Of a stretch of 64,000 nt of DNA, positions 42,381 to 58,787 are shown in pieces. Position 1 is the stretch's first letter, and every line of letters begins with the position of its first letter. The stretch lies in NCBI GenBank assembly GCA_029688905.1, contig JARULB010000003.1, positions 186,001 to 250,000 on the forward strand. Reading direction: 5' to 3'. The translations under genes and the position numbers were made by a program. Origin of the DNA: Balneolales bacterium ANBcel1 (GTDB taxonomy: Bacteria; Bacteroidota; Rhodothermia; Balneolales; Natronogracilivirgulaceae). The notes beneath the pieces were generated by a model that saw nothing but the letters and a program-made list of their open reading frames with translations, was not told the DNA's origin and did no database searches.

Positions 42381-45041
42381 TCACTTCACGAGCATGATTT
42401 TGTGCGAATCTATCGTTTCGTGTGTCAGCATCCGAACGATATAAACTCCGCTGGCGTAATTATCCGCATTGAAGGTAAGCGTGTACTTTCCGGCGGGGCG
42501 GGGCCTGTTGGTCAATGTCGTCACATAACGGCCAGTGATATCAAACACATCCACCCGAACCGGAACAAGGCCTTCCGCATGCTCCGGAATATTGAACTCA
42601 ATTCTCGTAGCCGTATTAAACGGATTGGGATAATTCGACAGAATTTCGAAGCGATCGCTCTCCACAATTTCAGGATATTCATCGGGAAGATCGAACTCCT
42701 GCAACACCCGGGTGTTCATTACCAGGTTATTATTATCGCGGAGTGACAGCCACAAAACATTTCCTCCATGATCGACCCCTTTCAGCAGAGTCCGTACCGG
42801 GTAGTAGTCCGGGTTGTTTTCATTTTCCGAGCCCTCATCAACCAAAAAATACATGGCGCTCTCTTCGTCGTCTCCCCTTACTTCCAAACTGATATGGTAG
42901 CGTTCCCCTTCCTGCAGAGTAATATCCAGCCCGGAGAGATCCACATGATTCAGACCGGCGCCGAGTTCCGAAAAGTCGACATCAACATACCCCAGTTCAT
43001 TATCCGGAACATAGCTGCCGATACCGGGCATTTGGCGGGAGTCGGCAACCGACACTCTGAGCGTACCGGTACCGGAAACCGCCTCGATTTCGGTGCTTGA
43101 AAGCAATGGAAACTCAACCGACTGGAGGATACTTTCTGCCTCGGAATCTATGCGTTTGGTGATGGTATTCAGAGCCACCGGATCCGGTGAAGCGGCGACA
43201 TTCACATAATCCGGGACTTCAACAAAGAACCTGGAAGGGCCGGAGTTGGAAATGGTAACCATGCGGTAACTGTCCGGGGTCCAGTCGGCCGTATAGGTAA
43301 ACTGACGGGTGCCGTACTCCATATTGGGAACCCGCAATGTATTTATAGATACCAGCGCCACCGACCGGAAGCCGCCCGACAGGCTGATATAGGAATCCTG
43401 CAACCGATCAACTCTGATGCTGCCGTCGGAGCTTTTCGAAATCACATAATGAAAAATCTCGGCCGGTGAGTCCACCTCTATCCAGATGTCATCCACATTG
43501 GGCCAGTGGATGTAATTCGCGCTTCCATACTGCAGAGAAACCCGTTGCCCGCGCACCCAGGGACGGTCTTCCAGTCCGAACTCCCTGCCGGGCTCATTAA
43601 CCCGGACCGACCCCATTTGCGGCAGGGAATACGAATACTCTGCATGCCGTTCCGGGTTCAGCCAGTTGGTGACATAGAACTCGGAAAGTACTTCGGTAAA
43701 CTCAAGGCCTTCATTCAATTCGTTCAAAATGGTCTGATAGAGCACCCATGGCTGCCGGCTGCCGGGCTGCTGGGTCAGCGCTCCGATTTTCAATCCCACA
43801 CGCTCGTAAAGATAACTGTGAAAGAGCTGCGCCCGCTGATAGTCGAACAGCACTTCCGGCTCACCCGTACGCCAGCGGAGGAAGCCGGGAGCCAGTCCCG
43901 ATTCAACATTTCCGCTGAGCTCATCCGGCATATTCAGAAACTGCATGTTCCGGGCGTTGAAGCCATTCAATATTTCGGCCAATTCAGACTGACCTTCATC
44001 CATAAACGTAATCAGCGGGCGGCTGTCGCGATACGCCTGAAGCAGATGCTGGAATTCATGGGCAACCGTGCCCAGAGGCCGGCGGGGATCAACCGTTCCA
44101 TCATCATCAAATCCGTAAATACCGGGGCGGGAATCGATATAGAGCACGGCCGCTTCGTTGCTGTTCGGATTCGCCGATCGCGGGGTAAAATCTCCCGGAT
44201 TGAAGAACCCGGCGACATAGCCACCGTTCGAATCCGGAGTCCAGTCATCCTGAATGTCGGTGATCAGAAACTTGATCATGCCCGATCCCGACGGATTGGG
44301 CACATTTGCCGGGTCGCCCATGGCAAAGATATCGATATTGTTTTGGATGATTCCCTGATCGGGGTTGACCGACCGGGACGGCGTGCTCACCTCAAGCGCC
44401 TCCAGCATGGCCGACACCACTTCGTCATCAATTTTTCCGGGACCAAACTCTTCGGTTTCCACCCAAATCTGGACCCATTCCCCAACGGCATGCAGTTCAA
44501 ACTCCACATCGTCAAACGTGGCGCTGCCGCCGTTACTCTCTTCAAAGTTATACACCTTGAATGTGCGGATGTCTCCCACCTCGTACACCGGCGTCGATTG
44601 CATCAATTCCGGCAAACCGGCTTGTGATTTCTTCAGTTCCAGAAATGCATCATAGGCATCCCTGATTTCCGGCACCCTGTAAAGGTGATCCGTCACATGG
44701 ATAATCGTTTCCTTTCCCGAATTGTGCCCATGGGATTCAATCTGCCCGTTTCCCGCCTGCTGGTGGCTGCTTTCCATACGCCATGGGGATCCGTACGGCA
44801 TACGGGACAAATCATCCATCGCAGAAGTGTTCCGGTGGCCGGCGAGGTTTTCATGGGTTTTTGAAAGCGTGTCATCGCCCTGAGGAATCGGATTGAGCCT
44901 TATTTCCTGGGCCATACCCTGCATGGAAACAGAGAAGAAAAGCAGGGCCGCTGCTGCAAATGGCACAGCATTGCGACCGTATGCATACAGCCATTCAGAA
45001 AACGTAAAGGAGCGAACCGGTTTTATATTTTGCATTTGCAT
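42381..45041 (-). CDS. T9SS-exported HEXXH metallopeptidase-like protein
   Basis: This 886-residue secreted protein has a late signal peptide (AVPFAAAALLFFSVSMQGMA, about residues 25-45). The zincin motif VAHEFQHLLQAY lies near residue 327, followed by an acidic FMDEGQSELAEI ~20 residues on, as in some M6/gluzincin-like peptidases. The middle third is beta-rich. The C-terminal ~85 residues are a T9SS type A sorting domain (ILSNYPNPFNTATRIEFNIP; VFDITGRYVTTL; ASGVYIVRML; final basic HKIMLVK). It should be exported by the PorX-regulated system. It lies 200 bp downstream of the CotH gene on the same strand. The substrate is unknown. Confidence 0.85.
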   Translation of the reverse strand: MQMQNIKPVRSFTFSEWLYAYGRNAVPFAAAALLFFSVSMQGMAQEIRLNPIPQGDDTLSKTHENLAGHRNTSAMDDLSRMPYGSPWRMESSHQQAGNGQIESHGHNSGKETIIHVTDHLYRVPEIRDAYDAFLELKKSQAGLPELMQSTPVYEVGDIRTFKVYNFEESNGGSATFDDVEFELHAVGEWVQIWVETEEFGPGKIDDEVVSAMLEALEVSTPSRSVNPDQGIIQNNIDIFAMGDPANVPNPSGSGMIKFLITDIQDDWTPDSNGGYVAGFFNPGDFTPRSANPNSNEAAVLYIDSRPGIYGFDDDGTVDPRRPLGTVAHEFQHLLQAYRDSRPLITFMDEGQSELAEILNGFNARNMQFLNMPDELSGNVESGLAPGFLRWRTGEPEVLFDYQRAQLFHSYLYERVGLKIGALTQQPGSRQPWVLYQTILNELNEGLEFTEVLSEFYVTNWLNPERHAEYSYSLPQMGSVRVNEPGREFGLEDRPWVRGQRVSLQYGSANYIHWPNVDDIWIEVDSPAEIFHYVISKSSDGSIRVDRLQDSYISLSGGFRSVALVSINTLRVPNMEYGTRQFTYTADWTPDSYRMVTISNSGPSRFFVEVPDYVNVAASPDPVALNTITKRIDSEAESILQSVEFPLLSSTEIEAVSGTGTLRVSVADSRQMPGIGSYVPDNELGYVDVDFSELGAGLNHVDLSGLDITLQEGERYHISLEVRGDDEESAMYFLVDEGSENENNPDYYPVRTLLKGVDHGGNVLWLSLRDNNNLVMNTRVLQEFDLPDEYPEIVESDRFEILSNYPNPFNTATRIEFNIPEHAEGLVPVRVDVFDITGRYVTTLTNRPRPAGKYTLTFNADNYASGVYIVRMLTHETIDSHKIMLVK

Positions 45042-45241: not shown

Positions 45242-48200
45242 CTATCTAATTAGCATCATTTTTTTTGCCGGGAGCACCATCTCGGAACCGGAGACCGGGA
45301 GAATCCTCATGCGATAGAGATAGAGCCCGCTGGCAAGGCCCTCACCGCTGAAGTGCAGGTGATGGGTGCCGGGCTGCTGCACTCCCGTCTCAAAAGAGCG
45401 TACCACCCTGCCGGTTACGGTAAACACAACCACCAACACCCGGGCCTGCTCTGCAAGTTCATAGGGAATTACGGTGCGGTTGTTGAAGGGGTTGGGATAA
45501 TTCTGTGCCAGGGAATGTCTCGTCGGAATATCTTCGCCGCCGGGTCGGGCGGATGTCTCCCATCCATTAACCGCCGATAATGCCAGGTTATCACTGCCGG
45601 GAGTCCATATGACAACCGGCAGGCCGGTTATGGAGTCATTGTGGATTTCAATATCGTCTCGTTCAAGCAGGTGGCTGTTCTCATCCAGCCAATCATCAAA
45701 CTCAAAACCATTATCGGGCATCGGGGTCACTGTCACCGGCACCCCCTTGAAGTAGGTGCCTGTCCATTCGGTGAGCGCTTCATCTATCCCTGGTGTTTTC
45801 GGATGGATATCCATACCGTTCACCTGCATATATCCCCAGTCTGTATCCTCAACGCGGATAGAGAGATTCGCCGTACCGGGCAAATCAAAATATTCGGACA
45901 GGTGCTTTCTAAGGTAGCCGGGTCTCTTTTCGGCAAAGGTTTTCATTACCTGGATGTGATCGTGCCATCCGGAAAGCGACTCCCCGGCACTGCCCGGATG
46001 GCGGTTCAGGTGCTCCTCCATTTCGGGCTCGTAGAGGTCACGAAACTCCCGGATTCTCTCCTTGACAAATTCCGGGCGAAACCGGGTATTGAGGTCATCG
46101 GCAAGCAGAGTTATAAAACGGTGGCGGAATGATTCGTTTTCGATAAGGGAATTAAACAATGCGTTGACCCACCGGCCCTCATTTCTGGGGTTCCCTATGC
46201 CGGTAATCCACTCCACCATGTTCATATCATACTGTGCCCACCAGGAAGCATTTCCTGCATAGGGATACCCGAATGAAGCGTCCATGTCAAAAATCATCCA
46301 GCGCCAACGACCGTCCGCACCAGGGAGCGCATCAGGGTCGAAAGTATCTGTTCGCTTCCGCCAGAAACGGATATTGTTGTGGGGCCAGTCGGCATTGGCG
46401 GCATACACATTGAGGGTCACATATTTCAGAAAGTTGTCGATATCCATCTGCGTCTTCATGTATGCGTAGTTCTCCTCAATGGCCAAATCCTCCATTACCG
46501 CAAAATCACGCATTTGAACATAGTGCCGGTTGTCGGAGGGCTCACCGGTATTCACATCGGCATTCCTGACCAGGATGGCTACCTTGTCGCGGGGGATTCC
46601 GTAATTGGTTTCGATATACCAGTCATCATAGCGCTCCCGGATATTGTGGATGCCCCAGTATTCGCCATTGATAAATACCACAGAAGGACGAAAACTTTGT
46701 TGATCCACCTTGCGGTCGGAATATAGCGACTGGATCATCGCATCCTTGAACATGGTATGGTGCCAGTCATCGCCGGAGGATCGCAGGATGAGTCGTTTAT
46801 AGGTATCCAGCGGCGCCGTTCTGTCTTCTCTCTGATTACCTGGAATCGCCGGATAGTTGATTTCCGGATACCAGTCATAATCACTTCTGGCGTAAATTCG
46901 CAGCGATTTCTGCGGGTAGCGACGGGTTCCACCGCCATGGATCCGCAAGCCGATATTTTGACGGAATCCATCTTGCTCCTCATATATCGGGGGGATGATA
47001 CCCGAATGGTTGTCATCGGGTTTGTAATGTGACTGATTCCTGTCGGACATGGGCTGTCCGGCTGATGCCGCTTGATGCTCGCTATTTCTGGGAATTCCAT
47101 CACTAAACAGCGGCTTCGCGGTATCATAAAATTCCAGGTGAGCCTCACGCTCCCACTCCCGTCCTCTTTCATAATAGTTTCCACTGTAAATAAAATCAGG
47201 ATCAAACCGGTTGCCGGGCACCAGAATGCCCGTTTCATCACTAAACAGGTGCACCGAGTCCGTTGCAATAGAGATCACCGGAAACGAATACCGATCGCGA
47301 CCCATCGGATCCACGAACCAGGTACCGGTGACAACCTCACTTTCTCTATAGCCCTCCCTGACCGCGATGGCCCGTATGACTTGCCCCTTGAATACCGGTG
47401 TTGCTGGGGGTGACCAGGAAGGGTGCGGCGAGGTCTGAATCCCGGTAAAACGATCTTTTTCGCCGGATCGATGATCGATTCTGATGGGCTCCCGATACAC
47501 CGGGGAGTCGACGGTCGGCCTGGATCCGTCGGTGGTGTAATGGATTCTGTCATGCGGATGCTGGCTTTCGAGCATTAGCAGGAATTCGGTATTGTAGAAT
47601 CCCGGCGGATTCGAAAACTCCGGAGCCGGTGTCAACCCGCCAAACCCCTCTTCGGAATTTGGTTCGCCTGGTGTGGGATATGCAAAAAGTTGCCATTGGT
47701 TAGATCCGTCGGGAAAACGTCCGTAGGAATAATCCGACGGAAGAGCAACGGGAGGAAGCGTATCTGCCTTGTTGCCGTTCATGTCAGTTAACCGCAACGG
47801 TTCTCCTTCACTGGCGATACTGAAGTTGGTATGCAGCGGCCGGCCCGGTGTCCGCCTGTCTTTTCCGGAGGCCCAAATCAACAGAAACTCGCCGGGATTC
47901 AGCAAGGTATCGGGCAGGACCCATCGATAGTGATCTCCCTCCCGGTCGGATAACCCGAAAGAAACCAGGTTTACCGGTTCGCTGCCGGCATTGTAGAGCT
48001 CAATCCAGTCTTCAAAATCCCCGTCTTCGTCGGCGATGGTAGTGTTGTTGGACGCCTGCACCTCGTTGATCACAACATGGGGCAGGGCTTGCATCGTAGA
48101 TGGTGGTACTACCGTATTACTACCATTCCCGTGAGATGGATTTGCGCCAGGCAGGGCAAGCAACCTGGTTGGCGACACCACTGCAAGGGCCAGCAGCAGT

Positions 48201-48280
48201 GCAAAAACAAAGGCTCGCAACCCTGGGCGGGATACAGATACAGGGGGATTACCGGTACAGGAAAAAGACATTCCAGACAA
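45242..48280 (-). CDS. T9SS-exported CotH-family protein kinase with lamin-tail domain
   Basis: The 1012-residue protein has a signal peptide (residues ~20-43), a lamin-tail domain (66-210, PHVVINEVQASNNTTIADED), a chitobiase-like Ig domain (218-325, RIHYTTDGSRPT), a CotH kinase domain (about 435-800) and a C-terminal T9SS sorting domain (AQNYPNPFNNRTVIPYEL, ASGLYLYRMRI). CotH signatures seen are IGLRIHGGGTRRYPQKSLR, SSGDDWHHTMFKDAM, VVFINGEYWGIHNIRERYD, ANADWPHNNIRFW, and the metal-binding WMIFDMDASFG. CotH enzymes of spore-formers and Fam20-like relatives phosphorylate secreted proteins. It is the fourth gene of the VTC-DUF4956-HlyD operon (28 bp after HlyD). Confidence 0.9.
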   Translation of the reverse strand: MSGMSFSCTGNPPVSVSRPGLRAFVFALLLALAVVSPTRLLALPGANPSHGNGSNTVVPPSTMQALPHVVINEVQASNNTTIADEDGDFEDWIELYNAGSEPVNLVSFGLSDREGDHYRWVLPDTLLNPGEFLLIWASGKDRRTPGRPLHTNFSIASEGEPLRLTDMNGNKADTLPPVALPSDYSYGRFPDGSNQWQLFAYPTPGEPNSEEGFGGLTPAPEFSNPPGFYNTEFLLMLESQHPHDRIHYTTDGSRPTVDSPVYREPIRIDHRSGEKDRFTGIQTSPHPSWSPPATPVFKGQVIRAIAVREGYRESEVVTGTWFVDPMGRDRYSFPVISIATDSVHLFSDETGILVPGNRFDPDFIYSGNYYERGREWEREAHLEFYDTAKPLFSDGIPRNSEHQAASAGQPMSDRNQSHYKPDDNHSGIIPPIYEEQDGFRQNIGLRIHGGGTRRYPQKSLRIYARSDYDWYPEINYPAIPGNQREDRTAPLDTYKRLILRSSGDDWHHTMFKDAMIQSLYSDRKVDQQSFRPSVVFINGEYWGIHNIRERYDDWYIETNYGIPRDKVAILVRNADVNTGEPSDNRHYVQMRDFAVMEDLAIEENYAYMKTQMDIDNFLKYVTLNVYAANADWPHNNIRFWRKRTDTFDPDALPGADGRWRWMIFDMDASFGYPYAGNASWWAQYDMNMVEWITGIGNPRNEGRWVNALFNSLIENESFRHRFITLLADDLNTRFRPEFVKERIREFRDLYEPEMEEHLNRHPGSAGESLSGWHDHIQVMKTFAEKRPGYLRKHLSEYFDLPGTANLSIRVEDTDWGYMQVNGMDIHPKTPGIDEALTEWTGTYFKGVPVTVTPMPDNGFEFDDWLDENSHLLERDDIEIHNDSITGLPVVIWTPGSDNLALSAVNGWETSARPGGEDIPTRHSLAQNYPNPFNNRTVIPYELAEQARVLVVVFTVTGRVVRSFETGVQQPGTHHLHFSGEGLASGLYLYRMRILPVSGSEMVLPAKKMMLIR

Positions 48281-48308
48281 AACGGGGTACAGGGTTCGAA
48301 AAGGGAAT

Positions 48309-49400
48309 TTATCGAACCAGTAGCCTCATATCAACAACTTCACCGGGAATAAGATCCAGTTCGTGGTTGAGCGCAACACGCACAGGCAGTCCGGTAGTCT
48401 CGAATGGCTGATCAGGAAACAGCGACGACATATGCTGGATGGTCTCCATGTGGACGCCCACTTCTGCAATTCTCATGACGGTTTCGCTGCGCTGCCGGTC
48501 CTGTTTGCGCACAAGCACTTCCATACCCGGTTCCGGTGTGGTCACGAGGGGATGGCGCAGGTGTGCCAGGATATAGTCGGGTTTTGGAGAGCGGATGATG
48601 GCGATGGTGTCGCCCCGGTCGACATACTCACCACTTGTGCCATAAACAGCGGAAATTTGTCCACTGACCGGTGCATGCAGCGTGATCGGCATCATTTCGG
48701 CTCTGATGCGGTCGATGGTCCGGCGCTGCACTTCAATGGCCGCGGCTCTGGGATCTTCCTCCTTCCAGACGGCCATCAGGTCCTCCAGATCTATGCCGGC
48801 GAGTCTGTTTTCCATACGGTCGACCAGTTCGCCTATTTTTTCAACCTCTTCTTGAAGCGTTAAAAACCCGGTTTGTGACTGCTCGAGCTGTTCGTCGGAG
48901 GCGAGACCGCGCTCGTGCAGGTCCTGCAGTCTTCTGTACTCACGTTCAGCTGCCTGCTTCCGAATTTCGGCGATGCCAAGCCTGGCCCGGTTCTCCATCA
49001 AATCCATCTGAAGGGATTCGTAGTTGAGCAGGTTTCTCTGCTGGTCGGCGATGGGATCCATGGAAAGACGGATGAGTTCAATTTCCGCGAGAACGACGGA
49101 AAGTTCGGCCTCAACGATTCTCGGATCGGTGGTAATCAGCCGGCCGATCTGGTCGCCTGCCGATACGGTATCAAAAGGCCTTACGGAAATATCGGCCAGG
49201 GATCCATTCTGCGGACTTCGTATCTCCGCCTGTTGCCCCACCACATATCCCACCATATTGGCGGCATCAACACGGTCCTTCCAGAGATAGGCAACCACAA
49301 GAGCGACAAGGGCAAAAATCAAAAATGGTAGAATGCGCACACGCATTTCCCGCCACTTTCGTGACGGCGGTACCGGTATTTTATCAAAATTTTCTGCCAT
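48309..49400 (-). CDS. HlyD-family periplasmic adaptor-like protein
   Basis: This 363-residue membrane-fusion-type protein has one TM helix (ILPFLIFALVALVVAYLW, residues ~25-42). A lipoyl/barrel-sandwich half (GQQAEIRSPQNGSLADISV; DTVSAGDQIGRLITTD) follows. A long coiled-coil hairpin spans about 110-230. The second barrel half (ITLHAPVSGQISAVYGTSGEYVDRG) and a C-terminal beta-barrel (LIPGEVVDMRLLVR) end the protein. This is the HlyD/MFP architecture, but no ABC, MFS or RND partner and no outer-membrane channel gene are nearby. It lies 19 bp after the DUF4956 gene and 28 bp before the CotH gene, so it is probably dedicated to this operon. Confidence 0.88.
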   Translation of the reverse strand: MAENFDKIPVPPSRKWREMRVRILPFLIFALVALVVAYLWKDRVDAANMVGYVVGQQAEIRSPQNGSLADISVRPFDTVSAGDQIGRLITTDPRIVEAELSVVLAEIELIRLSMDPIADQQRNLLNYESLQMDLMENRARLGIAEIRKQAAEREYRRLQDLHERGLASDEQLEQSQTGFLTLQEEVEKIGELVDRMENRLAGIDLEDLMAVWKEEDPRAAAIEVQRRTIDRIRAEMMPITLHAPVSGQISAVYGTSGEYVDRGDTIAIIRSPKPDYILAHLRHPLVTTPEPGMEVLVRKQDRQRSETVMRIAEVGVHMETIQHMSSLFPDQPFETTGLPVRVALNHELDLIPGEVVDMRLLVR

Positions 49401-49419
49401 GGCTATACTAACGATATAC

Positions 49420-50106
49420 TTAGACTTCCGATTCTTCCTCGGCTTTCATTGTGGTTACGCGTGATATGGAGGCATTGGCCTGAAGGTCACTTAGAAGATC
49501 ATGTACACGGTCGGGATCGCGCAGCAACAGCCGGTAGGAGAGGTCTGCGCCCTCCTCGTCATGGCCGGATCGCTGGCTGGCCATTTGAATTTTCAGTGCA
49601 TGACGCTCGAGCAGGTGCTGCAGCCCCGGCAGCTTCTTCAGGGAATCGGCCCAGTGCAGGTTCAGGATGAGGTCATATCGCTGGCGGGCGCCGAACGAGG
49701 TAAACCACAGATAGAAGAGCACCATGGACGCGACCAGGGTTCCGATAAGCGCCGTTGAATATTTTTGTGTTCCGCAGGCCATTCCGATTACGATGAGGCT
49801 CAGGATATATACCGTGTCAAGGGTATCCCGCACGATATTCCGGAACCGGACAATGGCGAATACGGCCATGAGACTGAAAGCGGTAACCAGGTTGTTGTCC
49901 AATACCATCATCACCAAGGCAACGGTGATGGGAATTAATATCAGGGAACTGACGTAGGTACGCGAATAGGACAACCCGGAGTGGGTGTACATATACACCC
50001 AGGCCAACATCTGTCCGCACAAAAAGGCCAGCAGCAGCGCCATCAGCAGGGCTGAAAAGTCCGTGGGTAGCGGCGCTACATCACCAAAATAGAACCAGTC
50101 CGACAT
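49420..50106 (-). CDS. DUF4956 family membrane protein
   Basis: The 228-residue protein has four hydrophobic segments in residues ~18-135 (ALLMALLLAFLCGQMLAWVY; LILIPITVALVMMVL; FSLMAVFAIVRFRNIVRDT; YILSLIVIGMACG) and a cytoplasmic ~80-residue C-terminal domain with an ACT-like beta-alpha pattern (DLSYRLLLRDPDRVHDLLSD). The VRFRNIVRDTLDT stretch is the part of DUF4956 I recognise. The biochemical role is not known. It is 20 bp after the VTC-domain gene and 19 bp before HlyD. Membrane placement next to a polyphosphate-polymerase-like domain suggests a channel or membrane partner, which is inference. Confidence 0.85.
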   Translation of the reverse strand: MSDWFYFGDVAPLPTDFSALLMALLLAFLCGQMLAWVYMYTHSGLSYSRTYVSSLILIPITVALVMMVLDNNLVTAFSLMAVFAIVRFRNIVRDTLDTVYILSLIVIGMACGTQKYSTALIGTLVASMVLFYLWFTSFGARQRYDLILNLHWADSLKKLPGLQHLLERHALKIQMASQRSGHDEEGADLSYRLLLRDPDRVHDLLSDLQANASISRVTTMKAEEESEV

Positions 50107-50126
50107 AAATTATTGCGTAAAATTAG

Positions 50127-50882
50127 TCATACGTACGACCGTAAAAACCGGTACTCGCCGAGGTTGGTCACACCGTCGACGTACTTCGCCGCGCCAACCT
50201 GACGCAGCCCGAATATTTGTACCAGGTCTTTAAACCAGTTTGGAAACCGGTTGGTAAATTTCAATTCGAGAATCAGGTCATTGCCAAAGACCAGCCTCGG
50301 ATTGCTCATCTCCGGAGAGAAGGAAATGGTTTTGTGAGGCTCACTTCGCACTTGCCGGTCGATGGTCACCCTGATCTTGTTGGAGCCGTCGGCGACCCAG
50401 GCCTCCCTGAAATAGGCAACATGTACCTTGGGTTCTGCCTGCAGGTGGTTAATCAGTCTCGAAAAATCCAGCAGGGCGTCCATCTGCTCCCCGCTGGGAT
50501 CCACCAGGCAGGAAGAGCCAGGGAGGAAGCCGCGGGCCACATCATCAGCGGCATGACGATGAACGATGGCGCGCTTTTTGGCAATGATCTTGTCGTGACG
50601 CCGCTTGATCTCAAAATATAGCGGAGCGTCTTCCATCTGTTCGTAAAAACGGACGCGTAGCTTGTAGCGATTGCGATCCCCGTTGATGGTGTTCTGGTAC
50701 GTTCTCATGCCCGGGGAGTCGAAGTACAGACTGTGGACCGGGTACGAGAGATTGGGCTGTGTGGCTCCATACGAATCAATATCCAGATAAGACGACAAAA
50801 AGTCGCGTATTCCAAGCGCAACATTCTCATTGATCACATACTTGTGCTCGAATCGCTGCCTTTGAATCGTATCGATACCCAT
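50127..50882 (-). CDS. VTC-domain (polyphosphate polymerase-like) protein
   Basis: This 251-residue cytoplasmic protein is of the triphosphate-tunnel-metalloenzyme superfamily, VTC subgroup. Tunnel residues are visible: FEHKYVIN (Glu12, Lys14), NRYKLRVRFY (Lys74, Arg76, Arg78), YFEIKRR (Glu91, Lys93), RVTIDRQV, and LILELKFTNRFP near residue 215. In eukaryotic Vtc4 these basic and acidic side chains polymerise ATP gamma-phosphates into polyphosphate. Whether this bacterial homologue makes polyphosphate or handles another triphosphate substrate is not shown. It is the first gene of the operon with DUF4956, HlyD and CotH. The GTA-free N-terminus (MGIDTIQRQR) marks a normal start. Confidence 0.9.
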   Translation of the reverse strand: MGIDTIQRQRFEHKYVINENVALGIRDFLSSYLDIDSYGATQPNLSYPVHSLYFDSPGMRTYQNTINGDRNRYKLRVRFYEQMEDAPLYFEIKRRHDKIIAKKRAIVHRHAADDVARGFLPGSSCLVDPSGEQMDALLDFSRLINHLQAEPKVHVAYFREAWVADGSNKIRVTIDRQVRSEPHKTISFSPEMSNPRLVFGNDLILELKFTNRFPNWFKDLVQIFGLRQVGAAKYVDGVTNLGEYRFLRSYV

Positions 50883-51227
50883 GCTGCTTCAGCTTCCTTG
50901 TTCGGTTAGCGCTTCCAGGCCCTGATTTAATAGTACACCTGATCATATAAAACGAAGGATTTCCATCGAATCGCATTCTATGAAAAGATAATAATTTTTT
51001 AACATCAAGAAAAAAAGCAAAAAGTGTGAAAAATACACTAAATAATCGCCCTCCTGTTCATTTGTCCGGCGATCGAACCGTTTTTGCTTTTTTTTGGTTA
51101 TACTTCGGAGTTGTACATGAATACATATAAGTGATTCATGTAAAACTGAATCGATACATAACTGTCCGTTAATATCGTTATCGGCTTTAGTTCGAAAAAT
51201 TTCAGTATCCACAACCCTACACTACCC
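50883..51227. other. Divergent intergenic region between VTC operon and TlpA-like gene
   Basis: These 345 bp are AT-rich compared with the flanks and should contain divergent promoters for the VTC-CotH operon (minus) and the TlpA-like gene (plus). The only structured element I see is an inverted repeat TACATGAAT-N11-ATTCATGTA at 51114-51142. No coding sequence is supported; short frames here lack family features. Confidence 0.55.
51114..51142. promoter_or_regulatory. Inverted repeat, possible operator
   Basis: TACATGAAT at 51114-51122 is matched by ATTCATGTA at 51134-51142 with an 11-base spacer. The symmetry and spacing fit a dimeric regulator site. It is ~85 bp upstream of the TlpA-like start. 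No regulator can be assigned. Confidence 0.35.
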
Positions 51228-55664: not shown

Positions 55665-56294
55665 ATGAAAACGAATTATTGGCCGCTCCTGATATTATTG
55701 TTGATGTACTTTATCATTAACTTATTTGATCAGCTGTATGTTTTCACAGATGAATTTATATATAGAAGCCTCCGTAATGAATTTTCAGAAAGTGCTCTTG
55801 AAGCTCTGATTACCTCTCACAACCGGTTCGGGTGGATCAGTTTCGCTCTGCTGCCATTCATCATTTTACTGAAAATTCTGTTTACTGCTTTTTGTGTAAC
55901 AACCGGCGCAATTTTTACAGATACAGATTTTTCATTTGGGAATATCTTCCAGTCTGCAACGTATTCAGAATTTATTTTTTTGTTTTCACAGGCTGTATTT
56001 TCACTGAATCTTTTTTTGAACCGGGACGAGTTGACAATTGATAGTGCCGGGAATTTCTTCCCCTTATCCGTTTTAAGCTATTTTGGTGTGGAGAACGTTG
56101 TCATCTGGCTCCACTACCCTCTCCAAACTCTCAACGTGTTTGAAGTCGCTTATGTCCTGTGCCTCACCTGGCTGCTTTCCAGACAGTGGAAACCCGATTT
56201 TGTTGACAGCATTAACATAGTATTGCCTTCCTATGGAATCGGTCTATTGACATGGATGATGCTGGTCGTATTCCTGACACTTCAGATCAGCTGA
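55665..56294 (+). CDS. Multi-pass membrane protein of unknown function
   Basis: This 209-residue protein has about five hydrophobic segments (YWPLLILLLMYFIINLF; WISFALLPFIILLKILF; EFIFLFSQAVFSLNLF; VFEVAYVLCLTWLLS; IGLLTWMMLVVFLTL). The pattern is Yip1-like, as in unknown membrane proteins I associate with peptide-export clusters in this bacterial group, but I cannot confirm a family. It is followed directly (2 bp) by a small open frame and then the C39 exporter, so it is probably in the same operon. A role in export or immunity is inference. Confidence 0.7.
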   Translation: MKTNYWPLLILLLMYFIINLFDQLYVFTDEFIYRSLRNEFSESALEALITSHNRFGWISFALLPFIILLKILFTAFCVTTGAIFTDTDFSFGNIFQSATYSEFIFLFSQAVFSLNLFLNRDELTIDSAGNFFPLSVLSYFGVENVVIWLHYPLQTLNVFEVAYVLCLTWLLSRQWKPDFVDSINIVLPSYGIGLLTWMMLVVFLTLQIS

Positions 56295-56588: not shown

Positions 56589-58787
56589 ATGAAGGGGGAT
56601 AAGAAACGGAATCAGCCGTCAATGAAAGCTCTTGAAAAGCTGTGGATCCGGCAGCATGATCAATCCGACTGCGGGGTAGCCTGCCTGGCGTCTGTCATCC
56701 GATACTATGGAGGCGAAGCAGGCCTTGAAAAACTTCGGGAAGAGAGCGGCACCACCATATCAGGAACAACACTTCTGGGCCTGTTTCAGGCGGCGCCCAA
56801 ATTCGGCCTGATCGCCGAGCCGTATGAAGCCGATATTCCCAATTTGAAAGAACAGACCGACCCCTGCATACTGCATATTGTCACGGAAAACCACCTGCAA
56901 CACTTTGTGGTATATTTTGGATTTGATGGAGATTACTTTTTAATCAGTGATCCTGCAGAGGGCGTAAAAAAGTGGCGTGAAGAAGAACTGGAAGCCGTCT
57001 GGAAGTCGAAAGCCCTGCTTCTACTAAAGAAAGGCGATGATTTTGCAACAAACGATGCTACAAAGAGAGAGAAATGGGGGTGGATCAGGAATCTCGCCGA
57101 AGAGGATATTCCGATCCTGGGTGTTGCGGTAGCCATCGGACTTTTTATTGCCGCACTGGGCCTTACAACTGCCATCTTTACCCAAAAGCTGATTGATGAA
57201 TTTCTGCCGGACGAAGACACGCTCAAACTTTTTGTTGGTCTTGGCCTGCTCACCTTTTTGCTACTTGTACGAAACGGGCTGTCCTGGATGCGTGAGCTTT
57301 TTCTCATCCGCCAAAGCCGTGATTTCAACAACCGGATGATCCAGTCATTTTACGGATCCCTTTTGCGGTTGCCCATGCCGTTTTTCCACAACAGAAAAAC
57401 CGGAGACCTCATTGCCAGAATGAACGACACGCGCCGGCTGCAGAGTACCATCACTTATCTCATAGGCGATGTAATTATTGATGTACTGCTGGTTATCACA
57501 GCCGCTGTGTTCATCATGTACTATTCCGTTTTTCTTGGGCTGTTTATACTGCTCTCCCTGCCCGTTTTCTATCTGTTAACCTGGAAGTTTCACGCACCCA
57601 TCCGGGATGGACAGAAAGAGGTAATGAAAGCCCACGCACTCAATGAGAGCAATTATGTGGATACGATTCAGGGCATCGCCGCCATTAAGGAAAGCAACCG
57701 GGAACGCTTCTTTTCAAGCGTAACCAAACAGGTGTACGGCCACTTTCAAAACACCATATTTGACTTGGGAAAAGTCGGCATCCGATTCTCTTTCTGGGCG
57801 GATACGGCAACTGTTGTATTTGTTGCCGGGGTGTTTGCCTGGGGTTCAGTGATGGTACTTAACGGCGACATACTTCTTGGGGCGCTAATTGCTGTCATTC
57901 AAATGAGCGGCCAGCTTATTCCTTCGGCGAACCGTCTGGCACTGACCAATCTTCAAATTCAGGAGGCAAGAGTGGCCTTCGACCGGATGTACGAGTTTGC
58001 GTCATTGAAATCAGAATATAATCTCAATGGCAGACAGGCAGAGGTTGAAGAATTTGAATTCGATGCACTGGACATCCGTAATCTGTCTTTCAGGTTTCCG
58101 GGAAGGAGCCCGTTGCTGAAGGAAGTATCACTGAATGTAAAAAAAGGGGAGGTAGTGGGTATTCTCGGCGAAAGCGGGTGTGGCAAAACCACTATCCTTC
58201 ACATATTGAAACGGTTTTATCAGGAAGAATCAGGTGATCTTGTCGTCAATCACTCAAAGAACCTTTCCGATATCCCGGTTCCAGTCTGGAGGGGCTGTGT
58301 TGCTTCGGTTCCCCAGGAGATCAAAATTTTCAATGCCCCATTGATACAAAACATCAGCCTGGGTGATATCACAAAACCGGAAGATATTGAAAAGGTCATC
58401 GCGTTTTGTAACAAAAGCGGCCTTGGAGCTTTCTTTGAATCCTTTCCCCAGGGTTATGCCACGTTACTGGGAGAGGAGGGTGTGAACATCTCCGGCGGGC
58501 AAAAGCAGTTGGTAGCCTTGGCCAGAGCGCTTTACCAAAAACCACAGTTGCTGCTTTTGGATGAGCCCACTTCCGCCATGGATCGTGAAACAGAAAAAAC
58601 GGTTTTGGATCTTCTAACCAATGCAAGAGATCAAATGGCTGTGATGATGGTAACCCATCGCGTTCAGAGTATAAAATATGCGGACCGAATCTATATTCTG
58701 GAAAACGGCATAATTGATTCCCAGGGCAGTCCGCGAAGCTTGCTTCAGACCGACAATCTTTATTCCCGGGCTGTCAGGGATGTTTAG
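56589..58787 (+). CDS. C39 peptidase-domain ABC exporter (bacteriocin processing and export)
   Basis: The 732-residue protein combines an N-terminal C39 cysteine peptidase (about residues 18-150: QHDQSDCGVACLASVIRYYG with the Gln and Cys, HLQHFVVYFG with the His, ISDPAEG with the Asp), a six-helix transmembrane domain (about 165-450) and an ABC ATPase (Walker A LGESGCGKTT, signature NISGGQKQLVALARA, Walker B LLLLDEPTSAMD, H-loop THR). All catalytic residues are present. It should cut after Gly-Gly in the leader of the peptide at 54.35 kb and export it. ATG 56589 is used; ATG at codon 12 is an alternative. No periplasmic adaptor gene is adjacent. Confidence 0.93.
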   Translation: MKGDKKRNQPSMKALEKLWIRQHDQSDCGVACLASVIRYYGGEAGLEKLREESGTTISGTTLLGLFQAAPKFGLIAEPYEADIPNLKEQTDPCILHIVTENHLQHFVVYFGFDGDYFLISDPAEGVKKWREEELEAVWKSKALLLLKKGDDFATNDATKREKWGWIRNLAEEDIPILGVAVAIGLFIAALGLTTAIFTQKLIDEFLPDEDTLKLFVGLGLLTFLLLVRNGLSWMRELFLIRQSRDFNNRMIQSFYGSLLRLPMPFFHNRKTGDLIARMNDTRRLQSTITYLIGDVIIDVLLVITAAVFIMYYSVFLGLFILLSLPVFYLLTWKFHAPIRDGQKEVMKAHALNESNYVDTIQGIAAIKESNRERFFSSVTKQVYGHFQNTIFDLGKVGIRFSFWADTATVVFVAGVFAWGSVMVLNGDILLGALIAVIQMSGQLIPSANRLALTNLQIQEARVAFDRMYEFASLKSEYNLNGRQAEVEEFEFDALDIRNLSFRFPGRSPLLKEVSLNVKKGEVVGILGESGCGKTTILHILKRFYQEESGDLVVNHSKNLSDIPVPVWRGCVASVPQEIKIFNAPLIQNISLGDITKPEDIEKVIAFCNKSGLGAFFESFPQGYATLLGEEGVNISGGQKQLVALARALYQKPQLLLLDEPTSAMDRETEKTVLDLLTNARDQMAVMMVTHRVQSIKYADRIYILENGIIDSQGSPRSLLQTDNLYSRAVRDV

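Follow-up and report, generated by a model that had tools for sequence, protein, structure and literature searches.

Association of VTC, DUF4956 and HlyD genes with exported CotH kinases in a Balneolales operon: a possible phosphate-polymer export system

The window analyzed here, a stretch of 64,000 nucleotides from Balneolales bacterium ANBcel1 (contig JARULB010000003.1, positions 186,001 to 250,000), carries on its minus strand, at 45242-50882, four genes coding for a VTC-domain protein, a DUF4956 membrane protein, a HlyD-type periplasmic adaptor and an exported CotH kinase. The four open reading frames and their gaps of 20, 19 and 28 bp were found again as given in a first-pass annotation made from the sequence alone; their spacing suggests a single transcript. 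The first three genes form a conserved core, to which CotH is loosely linked. The operon may tentatively be read as the inner-membrane part of a trans-envelope system exporting a phosphate polymer, accompanied by one exported kinase depending on it, a reading that we favor while holding it short of probable.

Conserved neighborhoods and genome-wide association

Co-occurrence was evaluated in 198 genomes of the phylum Bacteroidota, where DUF4956 is found within 600 bp and on the same strand for 39 of the 42 VTC hits, a linkage far above chance. In Balneolales, VTC-DUF4956-HlyD occur in the same gene order at 22 of the 23 VTC loci, the exception being a truncated contig: HlyD, regarded in the first-pass annotation as a special member, belongs to the core. 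HlyD is present at 17 of 35 VTC loci in the rest of the phylum and at 9 of 14 in Verrucomicrobiota, where its labels, as everywhere outside Balneolales, derive mostly from models built on those loci (Pfam backing is available for L091, L152 and the window). In other Bacteroidota the frequent arrangement is HlyD-VTC-DUF4956 and a nearby CotH gene; VTC-DUF4956-DUF2490 (L086-L090, L113-L122) characterizes a second clade, where DUF2490 is a possible alternative outer-membrane partner. At L047 the entire four-gene set is duplicated in tandem. CotH follows VTC-DUF4956-HlyD in the family of the window and in a few others, and is missing at L034, L037, L042, L043 and L048-L050; adjacency was counted by a kinase-domain-only model, which overlooks some of the CotH genes detected by Pfam, so that these counts are lower bounds. 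Of the linkage proposed at first, the VTC-DUF4956-HlyD part is conserved and recurs in two phyla, while CotH adjoins it only in some lineages.

In Balneolales, DUF4956 genes without VTC sit in operons composed of DUF4956, HlyD and an OEP-like protein of about 410 amino acids. The Pfam family OEP is matched in DUF4956-HlyD operons at L037 (7e-40), L105 (1e-34) and L108 (4e-17) and, in Verrucomicrobiota, at L152 (2e-14), L153 (1e-20) and L156 (1e-15); the Balneolaceae type (L091) gives a weak match (0.002), under the cut-off. This VTC-less Balneolaceae operon (L091-L100, L110, L124-L127; for example L091:7033-9938) has a fixed synteny, being flanked by a 182-amino-acid membrane protein and a short-chain dehydrogenase. 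VTC and channel are found together at L108 (DUF4956-HlyD-OEP-VTC-CotH) and at the three verrucomicrobial loci (VTC-DUF4956-HlyD-OEP). On a Hymenobacter volaticus plasmid, a HlyD-like gene (8e-84 by a model built here, no Pfam match), DUF4956 and a gene annotated as TolC family protein (OEP, 5e-41) are consecutive, while at L106 (5116-9301) myo-inositol-1-phosphate synthase, DUF4956, Porin_O_P and CotH form a single gene run. Two single-membrane bacteria, Planococcus maritimus (VTC-DUF4956-CotH) and Paenibacillus cellulosilyticus (VTC-DUF4956), have neither HlyD nor TolC in their sets: adaptor and channel therefore seem tied to the presence of an outer membrane. Since DUF4956-HlyD-TolC operons exist with or without VTC, DUF4956 seems to serve as the inner-membrane component of a TolC-type conduit.

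The association with CotH extends to whole genomes. DUF4956 is present in 59 of the 198 genomes, VTC in 37 and CotH in 81; all 37 VTC genomes carry both of the others. CotH is found in 55 of the 59 DUF4956 genomes versus 26 of the 139 others (p 6e-24); within Balneolales the figures are 21 of 21 versus 1 of 9 and, when only VTC-less genomes of the order are considered, 15 of 15 versus 1 of 9. The association persists after thinning the sample to a single genome from each genus (median p 4e-11) or each family (1e-5). DUF4956 and CotH are jointly absent within genera g11, g18 and g26, and in the first two they are not in one operon. Lifestyle may act as a confounder behind this association. Four genomes (G076, G083, G103, G204), where DUF4956, probably of another subfamily, occurs without VTC, HlyD and CotH, were kept in the counts and scored against it. 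Neither this association nor the DUF4956-HlyD-TolC operons had been noticed in the first-pass annotation.

Neither PPK1 nor PPK2 was found in the host genome (3.3 Mb, 98% complete), so VTC may be its only polyphosphate synthase. As a general rule for the phylum, the replacement of PPK1 by VTC was rejected: PPK1 is lacking in 3 of 37 VTC genomes and in 16 of the other 161 (p = 1). All 22 genomes with a VTC-less DUF4956-HlyD-OEP operon have PPK1, yet so do 179 of the 198 overall.

Predicted properties of the four proteins

The VTC protein yields an AlphaFold2 model with a confidence score (pLDDT) of 91.5, whose top PDB matches by Foldseek are yeast VTC subunits only, with Vtc4 first (3g3r, 5iiq, 3g3t, 3g3q; E 1e-14 to 1e-13, TM-score 0.66-0.76); Vtc4 is matched better than the hydrolytic triphosphate tunnel metalloenzymes. 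An alignment of 23 relatives contains 27 invariant columns, including nine catalytic positions of Vtc4, namely basic tunnel residues and the metal-binding glutamate: K14, R76, R78, K93 and K102 align with Vtc4 K200, R264, R266, K281 and K294, while R159, R171, E206 and K233 align with R361, R373, E426 and K458 (Vtc4 numbering was obtained by counting along the PDB alignment). R264, R266 and E426 are the positions changed to inactivate Vtc4 (PMC9911596). The enzyme, proposed as VTC-like from the start, thus keeps its active-site residues, and is predicted from sequence and model to be a polyphosphate polymerase. It consists of the VTC domain only: no SPX domain and no fused transmembrane helices or hydrophobic segment were detected by Pfam and hydrophobicity analysis. 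A 778-amino-acid VTC frame at L083 is probably a start-site artefact.

Five transmembrane helices are predicted for the DUF4956 protein (pLDDT 79), followed by a C-terminal ferredoxin/ACT-like domain, whose matches to such folds are weak and which the positive-inside rule would place in the cytosol. Residues R87, F88 and R89 are invariant in both VTC-linked and VTC-less members. The transmembrane region shows a remote similarity to MgtC in 9 of 24 relatives, the window protein itself being unmatched; searching PDB sequences with the DUF4956 profile produced no informative match. The HlyD protein combines a single N-terminal transmembrane segment (hydrophobic at 18-44) with an adaptor body, and scores 36 bits with HlyD_3 (Pfam cut-off 22.2), as expected for a periplasmic adaptor. 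No known energized pump (ABC, MFS or RND) is encoded in the operon, where DUF4956 is the sole inner-membrane candidate.

The CotH protein features lamin-tail and Fn3_assoc/CHB_HEX domains, a CotH kinase domain (445-790) and a type A sorting domain of the type IX secretion system (T9SS). D631, in ADWPHNN, aligns with the catalytic D228 of Bacillus subtilis CotH, whose D228Q mutant is inactive (PMC7821199), while D665 and D667, in FDMDASFG, align with the metal-binding aspartate region of 5jd9. These active-site residues are conserved, in agreement with the first-pass annotation, and the domain is a predicted active kinase; a PDB sequence search with the full-length protein gave nothing useful. 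Export by T9SS, also anticipated, is in agreement with the TIGR04183 score (26.3 bits, cut-off 23) and with the presence of a PorU sortase in the genome, Por_Secre_tail scoring 20.5, under its cut-off of 27. The start codon is uncertain, either TTG at 48280 or the in-frame ATG at 48271. The host genome contains nine CotH genes, including this one, and one VTC gene: a single module may therefore serve many exported kinases. All nine, among them those at C1:493021 and 496815, at C8:76904 and 79796 and at loci L065, L066, L068 and L069, are long open frames (870-1202 amino acids), some in close pairs.

Export model and alternatives

In the yeast VTC complex, polyphosphate synthesis is coupled to translocation through transmembrane helices (PMC9911596). 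By analogy, VTC would make polyphosphate from ATP at the cytosolic face, using its Vtc4-type active site; DUF4956 would dock VTC and let the chain through the inner membrane, taking the role of the yeast fused helices and Vtc1; HlyD would bridge the periplasm between DUF4956 and an outer-membrane channel of the TolC type, whose gene, part of the operon in some relatives, presumably lies at another locus of this genome. In most cases VTC would be what feeds this conduit. The polymer would thus arrive at the cell surface, where the T9SS-delivered CotH kinases would depend on it; its simplest role would be that of phosphoryl donor or of polyanion partner of their matrix targets. The envelope-spanning pathway first suggested remains the best reading, while nothing found here supports the sensing of polyphosphate proposed along with it. 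A more specific version, in which DUF4956 is the inner-membrane component of an undescribed TolC-type exporter of polyphosphate, made by either VTC or PPK1, and this polyphosphate is the phosphoryl donor of CotH, is rather unlikely as a whole; if true, it would account for a kinase working outside the cell without ATP.

Several observations weigh against phosphate-polymer export. In G028, a single-contig genome of the order, six CotH genes occur without any DUF4956 being detected, a situation seen in no other sampled genome of the order. Vtc4 R253 is replaced by T65 in the window protein. The transmembrane model of DUF4956 is of moderate confidence only, and to our knowledge no transport activity is known for this family. 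The operon contains no TolC/OEP gene, the rest of the genome not having been searched for OEP, and several VTC-DUF4956 loci in Bacteroidota and Verrucomicrobiota are without HlyD. The VTC-less DUF4956-HlyD-OEP operons imply that polyphosphate made by VTC cannot be the sole cargo. The characterized CotH of B. subtilis uses ATP as a kinase, and a CotH using polyphosphate would be hypothetical.

Some of these genes have been found in a polysaccharide context. In streptococci, clostridia and bifidobacteria, VTC, DUF4956 and CotH are known to accompany pelDEADAFG as accessory genes (PMC7112168); in C. perfringens NELoc-2 (PMC2879425) and in Planococcus they have a glycosyltransferase close by. The three genes are thus neighbors elsewhere, as stated in the first-pass annotation; a Cthe_2159 carbohydrate-binding protein accompanies VTC-DUF4956 in Paenibacillus, and L107 is located among apparent polysaccharide genes. 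The operon might accordingly be an accessory module for an exopolysaccharide, with VTC-DUF4956 tuning or feeding a surface-polysaccharide synthase, HlyD/TolC aiding export and CotH phosphorylating a matrix protein or glycan. We regard this as less likely than phosphate-polymer export, although worth serious attention: no glycosyltransferase or pel gene was recognized in or near the window operon, nor in the operons of most relatives, and a polysaccharide link leaves the polymerase active site unexplained.

The persistence of the CotH association in VTC-less genomes of the order, the hydrolytic nature of other triphosphate tunnel enzymes and the remote MgtC likeness of DUF4956, with its ACT-like domain, would fit a conduit exporting for CotH some other small ligand (a nucleotide, a metal or an acidic peptide), VTC being a triphosphate-binding regulator or hydrolase. 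The invariance of all nine mapped Vtc4 residues and a structure nearer to Vtc4 than to the hydrolases speak against such a role of VTC, and make this alternative improbable. Finally, HlyD adaptors are common and CotH is multicopy in the host, so that ordinary efflux or adaptor genes could have come to lie beside an unrelated storage-polyphosphate enzyme and a secreted kinase. Conservation already contradicts such a chance neighborhood, which is most implausible: the same set is shared by two phyla, where it comes in several orders and arrangements; VTC almost always adjoins DUF4956, and CotH co-occurs at the level of whole genomes.

Operon surroundings and comparison with known systems

The features of the region are reported in Table 1. 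The upstream neighbors of the operon (thioredoxin-like and S-adenosylhomocysteine hydrolase genes) are divergently oriented. Downstream, a gap of 200 bp separates CotH from a metallopeptidase gene, weakly similar to M30 and carrying a zinc-protease motif, which keeps its place after CotH in close relatives, directly follows HlyD at the CotH-less L042, and possibly belongs to the same transcription unit. The partly conserved upstream stretch, where TATAACCAAA...GGTTCG resembles GATAACCAA...AATGTTCA found upstream of VTC in several relatives, could act in the control of either the operon or the divergent gene. Scans for sigma-70 promoters and terminators gave matches no better than chance, and the Rfam search none. 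Elsewhere in the window, a bacteriocin-type peptidase-C39 ABC exporter is found at 56589-58787 (+), with a 209-amino-acid open frame upstream (55665-56294). The close relatives of the host are Balneolales, most of them metagenome-assembled, and their isolate names suggest a soda-lake origin for the host.

Table 1. Features of the operon and its surroundings (window positions)
Feature	Position	Strand	Support
VTC-domain (triphosphate tunnel) protein, predicted polyphosphate polymerase, soluble, 251 aa	50127..50882	-	Pfam VTC 2.7e-37
DUF4956 inner-membrane protein, 228 aa	49420..50106	-	Pfam DUF4956 2.4e-11
HlyD-type membrane-fusion (periplasmic adaptor) protein, 363 aa	48309..49400	-	Pfam HlyD_3 1.2e-8
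Exported CotH kinase-domain protein	45242..48280	-	Pfam CotH 9.4e-47, LTD, Fn3_assoc
T9SS-type metallopeptidase-like protein, HEFQH motif	42381..45041	-	TIGR04183 34.1 bits
Partly conserved stretch upstream of operon	51073..51102	-	Alignment of upstream regions

With DUF4956 gaining a testable role as a HlyD/TolC partner, and CotH kinases tied to it genome-wide, the results bear on the product and destination of bacterial VTC enzymes and on the phosphate donor of secreted bacterial kinases; confirmation of the model would suggest a phosphate source for extracellular kinases. The Gram-negative export version and the CotH tie appear to be new within the open-access papers searched, since the accessible text of the papers naming DUF4956 reports no HlyD/TolC partners.

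The yeast VTC complex (Vtc4/Vtc3/Vtc1) shares with the window set the triphosphate-tunnel polymerase fold, the active site and a membrane partner nearby; the window set lacks SPX and a fused transmembrane domain, has a separate DUF4956 in place of Vtc1, and would be located at the plasma membrane rather than at the vacuole. The MgtC family resembles DUF4956 in the transmembrane region of some relatives and in the C-terminal ACT-like domain, whereas the gene neighbors differ. HlyD/TolC tripartite exporters (type I secretion, EmrAB, RND) have in common the adaptor and, in sister operons, the TolC-type OEP; here the inner-membrane partner is DUF4956 rather than an ABC, MFS or RND pump, and no ATPase is encoded. 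The spore-coat kinase CotH of Bacillus shares the kinase domain, with residues equivalent to D228 and to the metal-binding aspartate, while the window protein is multidomain, T9SS-exported and not a spore protein. In the Gram-positive pel set (CotH-PPP-DUF4956-DUF4832, PMC7112168) and in NELoc-2 (PMC2879425), where DUF4956 is annotated under another name, VTC, DUF4956 and CotH stand side by side, HlyD, TolC and T9SS not being reported in the text available; at the window operon, in turn, no pel genes, DUF4832 or glycosyltransferase were recognized. The comparison connects the Gram-positive pel accessory genes with a putative Gram-negative export version.

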